NCBI GenBank assembly: GCA_023665825.1
Contig: JAMPDE010000001.1
Coordinates: 1-46,023, forward strand
DNA: 46,023 nucleotides
Reading direction: 5' to 3'
Origin: Alistipes senegalensis
GTDB taxonomy: Bacteria; Bacteroidota; Bacteroidia; Bacteroidales; Rikenellaceae
Below, one piece after another: positions 33,561 through 40,616 of this stretch. The position numbers were made by a program, and so were the translations under genes. The notes under the pieces are model-generated. The model worked only from the letters and a program-made list of their open reading frames with translations. It did not search any database and was not told the DNA's origin. How positions within the stretch are numbered: position 1 is the stretch's first letter; every line of letters begins with the position of its first letter.

Positions 33561-33568
33561 TATCTTTA
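33561..33568 (+). promoter_or_regulatory. Probable -7 box of the lipoprotein/radical-SAM operon
   Basis: TATCTTTA, one base from TAnnTTTG, 27 bases before the lipoprotein ATG. A TTTTTTCG run lies about 20 bases upstream as a possible -33 element. Confidence 0.5.
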
Positions 33569-33595: not shown

Positions 33596-33874
33596 ATGAA
33601 CAGGAAACTGAAACTCGCATTGGCGGCCTTATTGGGCTTCTCGACGGCTTGTTCCACCGTAAAAAACGCTTCGTCGAAAAAGACGGACGATGCGGCCGTT
33701 CCGGCCGATACGGTCGAGGTCGCTCCTCGTGTCGTCGTCATGTACGGCGTCCGTCCGCCGGTTCAATCGACCGGGCACCGGTCGTTGAGTTCCGTCCTGC
33801 AAGAGAACGACACCGCAACGGAAGCGCAGGACGCATCGGCTGCGCAACAACCCGAAACTTCGCCCGAAAACTGA
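33596..33874 (+). CDS. Small lipoprotein, candidate substrate of the adjacent radical-SAM enzyme
   Basis: A 92-residue protein with signal peptide MNRKLKLALAALLGFSTAC; Cys19 is the likely lipidated residue. The mature part is short, low in complexity (rich in A, S, T, E, Q) and without a fold I know. The one distinctive element is MYGVRPP at residues 49-55. It is followed after 16 bases by a SPASM radical-SAM gene. This matches the rSAM/lipoprotein pairing defined in Bacteroidetes (TIGR04133 enzyme with TIGR04134 lipoproteins, which I recall carrying an MYG-type motif). If so, the motif region may be enzymatically modified before or after export. The membership is inferred from context and motif. 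Confidence 0.72.
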   Translation: MNRKLKLALAALLGFSTACSTVKNASSKKTDDAAVPADTVEVAPRVVVMYGVRPPVQSTGHRSLSSVLQENDTATEAQDASAAQQPETSPEN

Positions 33875-33890
33875 TCCGGCGTCTTTCTCC

Positions 33891-34967
33891 ATGTTTTCCC
33901 GACGCAAACCGGGTCTTCGGAAACGATGGGCCCTCGACCTTTTTTCCGACCTCTATTCCCAAACCGTCGCCGAACATCGGCTGAATACGCTTTTTTGGGA
34001 GTGTACGCTGCGGTGCAACCTCGCCTGCCGTCATTGCGGAAGCGACTGCCGTGTCGCTCCCGACGTGCCGGACATGCCCGCGTCCGATTTTCTGAAAGTG
34101 CTCGACGAACAAATCACGCCCCACGTCGATCCGGCTGAAGTGCTCGTCATCTTTTCGGGCGGCGAAGTCTTGGTGCGCGATGATTTGGAGGAAGTCGGCG
34201 CAGAAGTAACGCGGCGCGGCTACGCATGGGGCATGGTGACCAACGGCATGGCCCTGACGCCGCAACGTTTCGAGCGGCTGATGCAAGCCGGATTGCGGAG
34301 CATCTCCATCAGTCTGGACGGATTCGAGCAAGCACACAACTACCTGCGCGGCAATCCTTTGAGCTACGAACGGGCCTTGCAAGCCGTACGGCTCGTAGTC
34401 CGGGAACCTGCGTTGGCTTACGACGTAATTACCTGCGCCACAAGCGCCCTGATACCGCATCTGCAAGAGTTTCGCGACATGCTGATCGCCGAAGGCGTGA
34501 AACATTGGCGGCTTTTTTCGATTTTCCCGATGGGACGGGCCCGCGACGATGCCTCCCTGCGCATGAGCGACGAGGAGTTCCGCACGCTGCTGGAATTCAT
34601 CCGCCGCACCCGCCGCGAAGGACGCATCGACGTCAGCTATGCCTGCGAAGGTTTTTTGGGCAACTACGAAGCCGAAGTGCGCGACCATTTCTACCAATGT
34701 GCCGCCGGAATTTCGGTCGCATCGATTCGGGTGGACGGTTCGATTTCGGGCTGCACCTCCATCCGCGCGAATTTTCATCAAGGCAACATCTACCGCGACG
34801 ATTTCTGGGATGTGTGGGAACACCGTTTCGAGCCGTTCCGCAACCGCGAATGGGCCCGAAAAGGGGAGTGCGCCGACTGCCGGATGTTCCGCTACTGCAT
34901 GGGCGGCGGCATGCACCTGCACGATGACAACGGCGACCTGCTCTATTGCCATTACCGGAAATTATAG
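33891..34967 (+). CDS. Radical-SAM/SPASM enzyme of the rSAM/lipoprotein system (TIGR04133-like)
   Basis: A 358-residue enzyme. The [4Fe-4S]/SAM site is CNLACRHC (Cys42, Cys46, Cys49). FSGGEVL (GGE motif) and SISLDG follow in the TIM-barrel part. The C-terminal SPASM-like domain has Cys270, Cys288, then CADCRMFRYC (327, 330, 336) and Cys353, enough for auxiliary clusters. SPASM enzymes usually modify peptides or proteins (thioether links, C-C bonds, epimerisation). It sits 16 bases after the small lipoprotein gene, its presumed substrate, on the same transcript. The chemistry and true substrate are unknown. There is no obvious transporter or protease gene, consistent with Sec/Lol export of the lipoprotein. 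Confidence 0.88.
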   Translation: MFSRRKPGLRKRWALDLFSDLYSQTVAEHRLNTLFWECTLRCNLACRHCGSDCRVAPDVPDMPASDFLKVLDEQITPHVDPAEVLVIFSGGEVLVRDDLEEVGAEVTRRGYAWGMVTNGMALTPQRFERLMQAGLRSISISLDGFEQAHNYLRGNPLSYERALQAVRLVVREPALAYDVITCATSALIPHLQEFRDMLIAEGVKHWRLFSIFPMGRARDDASLRMSDEEFRTLLEFIRRTRREGRIDVSYACEGFLGNYEAEVRDHFYQCAAGISVASIRVDGSISGCTSIRANFHQGNIYRDDFWDVWEHRFEPFRNREWARKGECADCRMFRYCMGGGMHLHDDNGDLLYCHYRKL

Positions 34968-38661: not shown

Positions 38662-38682
38662 AATCATCCGAAATACTCTTGG

Positions 38683-38690
38683 CAAAGATA
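38683..38690 (-). promoter_or_regulatory. -7 box of the FISUMP lipoprotein gene
   Basis: The minus strand reads TATCTTTG, an exact TAnnTTTG match, 21 bases upstream of the ATG. Confidence 0.65.
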
Positions 38691-38810
38691 GCACAAGCCA
38701 CGCGCAGAAACAAATTTATTCACCGCTTATTTCCGCCCGCGACATCGACCACGCTGCGGGTGGAACAATTTTTGCCCTCGCTGGACGAACGGAAAAAATC
38801 TCGAAACAGT

Positions 38811-39578
38811 ATGCGTCAGCCGAAAAAAGATGCGGAAAACGACCATTCCGACGAGCCGATTCGGATTACGATCACCGAGCGGGGGCCTTATCTGGTTTAC
38901 GGTCGGCCGCCGCTGTCCGCCCAATACATCATGCCCGACGAGAACAACGAAAGCTGGTACTTTCAGGAGGGCCGCCATTTTTCTACGGAAACGGAACCCA
39001 CCGCACTCTGTCGCTGCGGATCATCAAAACATCATCCCTACTGCGACGGTAGCCATGCGCAAGCCCGATGGAATCCTCGCCTTACAGCCGCCACGACGAC
39101 CCAGCCAGATGAAATCGAAACCATCGAAGGTGCGACGGTCGATTTGTTGGACATCAACAAATTCTGCGTATTCGCACGGTTTTGCCATCCGGCCGGAGAC
39201 ACATGGGACTTGGTCGAGCGTTCCGCGACGCCGGAAGCCCGGCGGCTGGCCATCCGGGAAGCCTCGATGTGCCCCAGCGGGCGATTGACCGCGCGGGACA
39301 GACGAACGTCGCAGCCGTTCGAATTCCGGTTCGAACCCGAACTCGGGCTTTTAGAAGACGACGCCATCGGTTCCAGCGGCGGGCTGTGGGTGCGCGGCGG
39401 CATCCCCATCCGACGCCCCAGCGGCGAAACCGACGAAATCCGCAACAGGGTAGTGCTGTGTCGCTGCGGACAATCGAGCAACAAACCCTATTGCGACGGC
39501 ACCCATGCGGCCGTCAAATGGCGCGACGGCATCGAAAGCGAACCGGTAGGCGAGACCCAGCCCGAAGAGGTCTATTAA
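38811..39578 (+). CDS. Double-CDGSH iron-sulfur protein with central ferredoxin-like segment
   Basis: A 255-residue cytoplasmic protein with two CDGSH [2Fe-2S] sites: Cys67, Cys69, Cys78, His82 and Cys217, Cys219, Cys228, His232. Both follow the CxC-X8-C-D-G-(S/T)-H pattern. Between them DINKFCVFARFCHP and CPSGRLT (Cys119, 125, 154) match the Fer4_19/DUF1271-type segment that precedes CDGSH domains in other bacteria. Such proteins may carry or store Fe-S clusters or electrons and respond to redox state. ATG 38811 is preferred; upstream in-frame codons run back into the divergent lipoprotein promoter. It ends within a long shared hairpin. Confidence 0.88.
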   Translation: MRQPKKDAENDHSDEPIRITITERGPYLVYGRPPLSAQYIMPDENNESWYFQEGRHFSTETEPTALCRCGSSKHHPYCDGSHAQARWNPRLTAATTTQPDEIETIEGATVDLLDINKFCVFARFCHPAGDTWDLVERSATPEARRLAIREASMCPSGRLTARDRRTSQPFEFRFEPELGLLEDDAIGSSGGLWVRGGIPIRRPSGETDEIRNRVVLCRCGQSSNKPYCDGTHAAVKWRDGIESEPVGETQPEEVY

Positions 39579-39638: not shown

Positions 39639-40616
39639 CTATTTTTTCTCCGGTTTGGCGATCGTCTCACGCATCGACGTATCGGCCATGATGTTCTTCA
39701 TCTTGTAGTAATCCATCACCCCGAGATTGCCGTTGCGGAATGCTTCGGCCATCGCCAGCGGCACTTCGGCCTCCGCCAGAATCACTTTCGCACGGGCATC
39801 CTGCGCTTTGGCCTTGTTCTCCTGCTCCAAAGCGACCGCCATAGCGCGACGTTCTTCGGCTTTCGCCTGCGCGATATTCTTATCGGCCTGCGCCTGATCC
39901 ATCTGCAACTGCGCGCCGATGTTCTTGCCGACGTCGATGTCCGCAATGTCGATCGACAGAATCTCGAAAGCCGTCCCGGCATCGAGCCCCTTTTCGAGCA
40001 CGACCCGCGAAATCGAATCGGGATTTTCCAACACGATTTTGTGCGAAGCGGCCGAACCGATAGACGAAACTATTCCTTCGCCGACACGTGCCAGCACGGT
40101 TTCTTCACCGGCACCGCCGACCAACTGCTTGATATTGGCACGCACCGTCACACGGGCTTTGGCAATCAACTGGATACCGTCTTTCGCAACGGCGGCGACC
40201 GGCGGCGTATTGATGACTTTCGGATTGACCGACATCTGCACCGCCTCGAACACGTCGCGACCGGCCAAGTCGATAGCCGTCGCCATGCGGAAATCGAGCA
40301 CGATGCCCGCTTTTTGGGCCGATACCAGCGCATGAACGACATTCGTCACGTTGCCGCCCGCCAGATAGTGCGCTTCCAATTCGTTGGGATTGAGCGACAA
40401 ACCGGCTTTCGTGCTCTCGATCATCGACGAAACGATCGTCGATGGCGGCACCTTGCGCCAGCGCATCAGAATCAATTGCAACAGGCTGATCCGCACGCCG
40501 GAAACCAGCGCCGAAAACCACAGCCCCACCGGTATGAAGTAAAATACGAGCCATACCGCGACGAGCGCCACGAAAATCACCAATGCAAGCATTCCCTGAT
40601 CCATAATTCCTTCCAT
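39639..40616 (-). CDS. floA: Flotillin-like protein FloA
   Basis: A 325-residue protein. A hydrophobic N-terminal hairpin (about 8-50) anchors it to the membrane without crossing fully. The SPFH/flotillin core includes [18 protein letters not shown] helical Ala/Glu-rich stretch ([21 protein letters not shown]) is typical of flotillin coiled regions. FloA forms membrane microdomain assemblies that organise signalling and secretion proteins. It follows the nfeD-like gene by nine bases, the conserved nfeD-floA pairing. An alternative start four codons downstream is possible. Confidence 0.94.

Follow-up and report, generated by a model that had tools for sequence, protein, structure and literature searches.

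The DNA considered here is a stretch of 46,023 nucleotides from the Alistipes senegalensis contig JAMPDE010000001.1 (hereafter the window), in which a gene for a small lipoprotein immediately precedes a gene for a radical SAM/SPASM enzyme. Both open reading frames (ORFs), at 33596-33874 and 33891-34967 on the + strand, were confirmed in the window sequence and are separated by a gap of 16 bases (33875-33890). A first-pass annotation of this DNA had described a 92-residue lipoprotein with the motif MYGVRPP, followed after 16 bases by a SPASM radical SAM enzyme, and each of these elements is present. The features are as follows.

33561..33568, + strand: weak candidate Bacteroidetes-type -7 promoter element, TATCTTTA (located by eye; one mismatch from TAnnTTTG)
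33596..33874, + strand: short lipoprotein of 92 amino acids plus stop, proposed substrate, not TIGR04134 (ORF, family searches, alignment)
33596..33649, + strand: lipoprotein signal peptide, residues 1-18, for which we infer a second role as enzyme recognition leader
33632..33640, + strand: LGF element of the signal peptide, residues 13-15 (common to both substrate kinds; absent in 88 background lipoproteins)
33650..33652, + strand: lipobox Cys19, the lipid anchor (sequence, alignment)
33740..33748, + strand: Met49-Tyr50-Gly51, proposed splice site with tyramine lost from Tyr50 (motif, alignment, PlpXY literature)
33891..34967, + strand: TIGR04133 radical SAM/SPASM enzyme, 358 amino acids (ORF, NCBIfam and Pfam)
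34014..34037, + strand: CX3CX2C radical SAM cluster motif, C42/C46/C49, in an HCGS context common to PlpX-family enzymes (sequence, alignment)
34698..34949, + strand: SPASM region, C270 to C353, with Gly340 in place of a canonical Cys (Pfam, alignment)

The candidate -7 element lies shortly 5' of the lipoprotein ATG. The Bacteroidetes -7 promoter consensus is TAnnTTTG, and a pattern scan of the window revealed no exact match to it before the lipoprotein gene. Across the window the consensus occurs at 30 sites, compared with 16.4 expected, and none of 100 shuffles reached this number. The gene pair is neighboured by genes for cold-shock, PFK, SPFH and RHH-like proteins. Farther along, the product of a gene at 38679-39578 combines a Fer4_19 domain with two iron-binding segments of the CDGSH type, and the next gene (39639-40616, opposite strand) encodes a FloA flotillin-like protein.

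The enzyme is a clear member of TIGR04133, as the first-pass annotation had proposed, with a score of 609.6 bits over residues 9-358 against a cut-off of 425. The Pfam models Radical_SAM (PF04055) and SPASM (PF13186) both score above cut-off as well. The SPASM cysteines are C270, C288, C327, C330, C336 and C353. The canonical SPASM motif is CX2CX5CX3C, and its fourth and last cysteine is Gly340 in this enzyme, so the earlier statement that all cluster cysteines are present was wrong. In our alignment this position is Gly in nine and Ala in one of 10 TIGR04133 rows, and Cys in all five PlpX/GDL-like rows. Filing the enzyme under TIGR04103, which we take to be the PlpX family (IPR026482), was rejected because its score of 125 bits falls far under the cut-off of 725; this score is on par with the 127 bits obtained with the model for heme b synthase, AhbD. 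A search of the PDB returned nine sequences at E<=0.001, of which the best (51.6 bits) is a cytosylglucuronate decarboxylase and none is a splicease by name. Among the matches listed, the closest enzyme is 86% identical and comes from an uncultured Alistipes.

The lipoprotein consists of the signal peptide MNRKLKLALAALLGFSTA, lipobox Cys19, a low-complexity linker and the MYGVRPP motif at residues 49-55 (33740-33760), and it has no NCBIfam or Pfam match at E<=1. Its initial assignment to TIGR04134 did not survive HMM searches, in which this model (cut-off 39.8 bits) gave no match to the lipoprotein at E<=1 and none in the window's own genome at E<=0.001. The assignment is rejected, and the protein represents a distinct short kind. 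The TIGR04134 model has 150 positions versus the 92 amino acids of the window lipoprotein, whose Tyr follows the Cys by 31 residues, whereas the distance is mostly 1-14 residues in TIGR04134-like rows (68 of 87). The TIGR04134-like lipoproteins of relatives share with it an L-G-F signal element and an XYG motif. When 23 short lipoproteins are aligned, the sole invariant columns are G14, C19, M49, Y50, G51 and P55, with M1, K4, L13, F15 and V52 nearly invariant. The mean column identity is 27%, and the invariance of M, Y, G and one Pro against this background strengthens the earlier view that the motif is the natural target.

Lipoproteins upstream of other TIGR04133 genes were compared in two sets, which overlap in genomes and are counted apart. 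Set 1 comprises 61 TIGR04133 places (the window and 60 others), and set 2 comprises the best 80 of at least 577 loci; L137 and L237, whose contigs end upstream, were set aside. A signal-bearing XYG protein lies upstream in 57 of the 60 set 1 places with upstream DNA, the window included, and an XYG lipoprotein lies upstream in 76 of 79 such loci among the best 80 of set 2. XYA takes the place of XYG in L130, L133 and L135 (set 1) and in L229 and L241 (set 2), where L130, L133 and L241 were classed by eye and each carries a second, unrelated YG. The remaining case, L251, has neither an XYG nor an XYA lipoprotein in the roughly 3.6 kb before its enzyme gene and is the sole such case among 139 loci with upstream DNA (overlapping sets). 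This locus (L251:1-9050) is a TIGR04133-bearing stretch of a Bacteroidaceae metagenome-assembled genome from horse faeces. The claim that enzyme and lipoprotein form a recurrent unit is thus supported by both sets. Enzymes that regularly lack an adjacent motif lipoprotein had been named beforehand as the observation that would speak against the pairing; only the one locus in 139 is of this type, and the pairing is not refuted. In L259, the true lipoprotein motif is DMYGTPH. Under a stricter lipobox definition, 54 of the 61 set 1 places have a YG lipoprotein no farther than 1.5 kb away.

The motif also stands out when proteins are chosen by position, irrespective of their motifs. Among the dipeptides in residues 15-110, YG ranks first and occurs in 101 of 116 distinct nearest upstream signal-like ORFs, a collection that contains interrelated sequences, a few ORFs that are unrelated and some with a wrongly chosen start; composition leads to an expectation of about 0.24 per protein. 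Among 154 distinct substrate rows, which were selected on Y[GA] and include a few false entries, the residue X before Tyr is most often M (91 rows), followed by E (31) and C (18), and the third position past Tyr is commonly occupied by P (101) or R (22). The Gly can be followed by V, T, C, S, I or P. In the MYG motif first noted X is variable, and the motif is better written XYG than strict MYG.

Two kinds of lipoprotein occur upstream of TIGR04133 genes, sometimes together: the short kind, in which Tyr lies at least 22 residues past the Cys, and the TIGR04134-like kind, which in Parabacteroides carries a CarboxypepD_reg domain. By our own count, a single enzyme is preceded by two to five different XYG lipoproteins at 14 of the 61 set 1 places. 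In some substrates (e.g. L103, L105, L107, L109, L124, L128, L136 and L075 from Treponema) the motif is CYG and its C is the lipobox Cys, so that splicing, as proposed, would act on the Cys that bears the lipid. Lipoproteins of 78-79 amino acids that adjoin TIGR04133 genes at L245:3755-3988, L249:3746-3982 and L250:3761-3994 each carry two MYG motifs (LMYGPPTPDW and SEMYGTPYKTF in L249), and one protein may thus be modified twice. In some Alistipes-related genomes, a second radical-SAM-like gene, identified by an in-frame CX3CX2C, resides between XYG/XYA lipoproteins and TIGR04133 (L058:432-1466, with similar ORFs in L116 and L229).

TIGR04133 scores above cut-off in 54 of 120 family genomes and is present at E<=1e-60 in 55, and 30 of these 55 fall within the 32 genomes listed for the genus, the window's own included. 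It scores above cut-off in two of 296 phylum genomes, one of which is again the window's own. In contigs representing one genome per species, at least 577 stretches encode TIGR04133 relatives, and the best 80 of these include Alistipes, Tidjanibacter, Tannerella, Parabacteroides, Butyricimonas, Paludibacter and Bacteroides clarus. Plasmid records add relatives in Parabacteroides distasonis and in the spirochaete Treponema saccharophilum, and on both plasmids a protein annotated as ‘radical SAM-associated putative lipoprotein’ adjoins the enzyme. A model of the short lipoproteins (A2; 23 rows built from enzyme-adjacent proteins, the adjacency of those rows being by construction) matches 28 of the 120 family genomes, all within the 55 enzyme-bearing genomes, with no match in any of the 65 enzyme-less ones. 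TIGR04134 is above cut-off in 38 of the 120 family genomes, 36 of which have the enzyme; the other two (G353 and G383, 84-85% complete) carry TIGR04134 without a detected enzyme. In one genome (G394), a short-kind lipoprotein gene (C3:23011-23298) and the enzyme gene (C16) lie on separate contigs, and the former might encode a substrate modified in trans. A phage origin was considered and rejected, as none of 29 pattern matches in viral contigs was confirmed as a relative.

The signal peptides of the substrates share an apparently new L-G-F element. In the 15 residues that precede the lipobox Cys, the pattern [LMIV]GF is found in 73 of 84 candidate substrates and in none of 88 background lipoproteins, an unmatched comparison in which the substrates come from many related genomes, were picked on Y[GA] near the lipobox and include some false entries (e.g. 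L118, L123 and L125), whereas the background comes from 846 kb of the window's genome alone, with the window lipoprotein dropped by an overlap filter. In set 2 (best 80 of at least 577), a looser LG[FML]-like signal together with an upstream XY[GA] is found in 77 of 80; this pattern misses L237, L244 and L251, of which L244 carries FGI and AEYG. Variants of the element in some substrates include FGM, LGL and LGA. Because the hydrophobic cores of signal peptides are normally not conserved in sequence, we infer that the enzyme recognises L-G-F, and the signal peptide may double as the leader of a ribosomally synthesized and post-translationally modified peptide (RiPP).

Published work names the XYG motif as the target of PlpX spliceases, with PlpXY described as acting naturally on MYG and LYG, accepting GYG and removing C8H9NO (PMC10533398, PMC11002830). 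In Nostoc, an enzyme scoring 853 bits to TIGR04103 (cut-off 725) adjoins a 71-residue partner and a Nif11 precursor ending in ALYGLPPELF, a sequence comparable with VVMYGVRPP in the window lipoprotein. Like PlpX, the window enzyme adjoins an MYG precursor with a Pro a few residues on. Unlike the PlpX substrate, which has a Nif11/NHLP leader, the substrate in the window carries the signal peptide of a lipoprotein, and the enzyme is only about 28% identical to the Nostoc enzyme and has Gly340 at one SPASM Cys. It also differs in having no RRE partner gene that we could find: Pfam, which misses the Nostoc partner-like protein too, detected no PlpY-like RRE partner beside the window pair, a weak test that a fused or distant RRE might escape.

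Trees were built from 33 rows and then from 27, after five long-branch rows and L012 were dropped; they were midpoint-rooted and contained one TIGR04103 sequence and no AhbD, for which 148 phylum genomes yielded no sequence at E<=1e-100. TIGR04133 and PlpX/GDL each form a clade (100/100 for both), and under midpoint rooting the two fall within one 21-row group (88/98 with 33 rows, 99/96 with 27) that is apart from MftC, NirJ, TIGR04053 and TIGR04347. The best tree does not join TIGR04133 with PlpX, but a forced joint clade is not rejected (AU p=0.234). The HCGS sequence is found in TIGR04133 and PlpX/GDL rows, and a GxxGxYE block in most rows of the alignment. The 21-row group includes the Agathobacter/L003 and g49 enzymes, beside which no XYG substrate was found in the stretches read. 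The same wider group holds the maturases of GDL-motif peptides (TIGR03913), which are 47-48% identical to the Nostoc TIGR04103 enzyme. These are longer than the window enzyme (474-516 versus 358 amino acids), and their substrates are DUF1843 peptides of 56-64 amino acids that carry XY[G/A/M] near the N-terminus and have no signal peptide, in contrast to the window lipoprotein. The mycofactocin maturase MftC, whose target is a C-terminal Val-Tyr rather than an internal XYG, lies outside the group that holds TIGR04133. MftC is likewise a radical SAM/SPASM enzyme that acts on a Tyr of a small protein (PMC8326336).

From these sequence comparisons, we consider it rather probable that the two genes form a RiPP-like system of the splicease type that acts on a lipoprotein, excising tyramine to leave an alpha-keto-beta-Met. 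The enzyme would bind the prolipoprotein in the cytoplasm through its signal peptide (L-G-F) and excise the tyramine part of Tyr50 from Met-Tyr-Gly, with a loss of C8H9NO (about 135.07 Da). The Tyr carbonyl would then be joined to Met49, placing an alpha-keto-beta-methionine residue in the backbone. Sec export of the spliced protein, lipidation at Cys19 and removal of the signal peptide by the housekeeping lipoprotein signal peptidase would follow, and since this peptidase would remove the signal, no dedicated leader protease or transporter would be needed. The predicted product, a membrane-anchored protein of about 73 residues, would probably face the periplasm and bear its electrophilic ketoamide some 30 residues away from the lipid. 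That the family has no established product chemistry, as had been remarked, agrees with the published record as far as we found it for TIGR04133, but the XYG target and the relatives of the enzyme point to a PlpX-type splicease. The literature searched yielded no paper naming TIGR04133 or TIGR04134, no chemistry, and no paper joining a radical SAM RiPP leader peptide with signal peptidase II, although Scott et al. 2022 may cover part of this ground. That article (Chem 8:2659), reportedly on ‘peptides and proteins’, is the likeliest source of relevant findings and could lower the novelty of the proposal.

Other explanations deserve consideration. The enzyme might modify the XYG Tyr by different radical chemistry, such as a crosslink to a neighbouring residue, a mycofactocin-like reaction, hydroxylation or epimerisation. 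AhbD, which is equally close by HMM score, is a decarboxylase, one SPASM Cys differs from PlpX, and such reactions are generally known among SPASM enzymes (for mycofactocin, see PMC8326336). However, an internal Tyr, a free X and a variable residue after Gly together follow the splicease rule. We know of no crosslink rule that this combination fits, and we regard different chemistry at Tyr as unlikely. A further reading is that the lipoprotein stays unmodified and serves as a partner (perhaps as an anchor or as the carrier of a cofactor), while the real substrate lies elsewhere. The genes are, after all, only neighbouring and co-occurring, the chemistry is proposed from sequence, and the short-lipoprotein gene of G394 lies on another contig than its enzyme. 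Yet in 14 of the 61 set 1 places several different XYG lipoproteins precede a single enzyme, a substrate-like pattern, and the short kind conserves its signal element, Cys and short motif amid otherwise variable sequence, which makes a pure partner role improbable.

The L-G-F element might be shared through common descent or a membrane-targeting need rather than enzyme recognition, an explanation that is itself compatible with splicing. The short and TIGR04134 kinds could derive from one N-terminus through domain loss, and L141 and L142 have LGA and LGT in place of LGF. Against this, both LGF and EYGVREP are retained in L002, which lacks a lipobox Cys and whose enzyme (47% identical) comes from a different bacterial family within the phylum, and the element was missing from this place in every ordinary lipoprotein of the window's genome that was compared. 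We find descent or targeting a serious possibility, if a doubtful one, and continue to favour splicing guided by the signal peptide.

The location of the product can be judged from its mature N-terminus. The lipoprotein export signal of Bacteroidetes is acidic and lies just after the Cys, as demonstrated by work in Capnocytophaga that also included signals of Bacteroides fragilis and Flavobacterium (PMC5080379). By this rule, which was established in other genera, the mature start of the window lipoprotein (CSTVKNAS) has no acidic export signal. Two or more acidic residues at positions +2 to +7 are found in one of 54 short-kind lipoproteins, 41 of 87 of the other kind and 37 of 88 background lipoproteins. 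Surface display is thus disfavoured, the first-pass description of a surface molecule loses its support, and the better guess is that the lipoprotein faces the periplasm.

The pair probably makes an unusual, chemically reactive lipoprotein. Because spliceotide products inhibit proteases, as stated in PMC10373908 and PMC11117315, a tethered protease trap is the leading guess. By this analogy we weakly favour the covalent capture or inhibition of a protease as the most likely job, with X setting the specificity. CYG substrates do not suit this role, as their X is the very Cys that carries the lipid.

Although the gene pair was known by name, our sequence analysis gives a specific clue to its chemistry, adds a short partner family distinct from TIGR04134 and points to a likely signal-peptide leader. 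More tentatively, one might envisage widespread backbone-spliced lipoproteins, mainly in Bacteroidota, for which the signal peptide (L-G-F) would be the leader and the housekeeping signal peptidase the leader peptidase, with CYG yielding a lipid-Cys-ketoamide and other X residues a protease-trapping ketoamide. If this is true, CYG members (e.g. of Tidjanibacter and Treponema) would have a new lipoprotein N-terminus, the lipid-Cys-ketoamide, and X (Met, Glu, Ala or Leu) elsewhere would be the variable specificity residue of a membrane-tethered, protease-trapping ketoamide. If the splicease reading is right, the TIGR04133/TIGR04134 system of common gut bacteria would gain a definite, testable chemistry. 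Membrane lipoproteins would join the known spliced proteins that contain beta-amino acids, and the part of a RiPP leader would be played by a signal peptide. Reactive ketoamides would also be placed in the cell envelopes of Alistipes, Parabacteroides and Bacteroides, where they might take part in protease control.

Near PlpX-like enzymes, DUF1843 peptides were observed that carry XYG, XYA or XYM close to the N-terminus (L076:3222-3935, L077:2028-2743 and L009:831-1254). Peptides of this type are a possible further family of splicease substrates.
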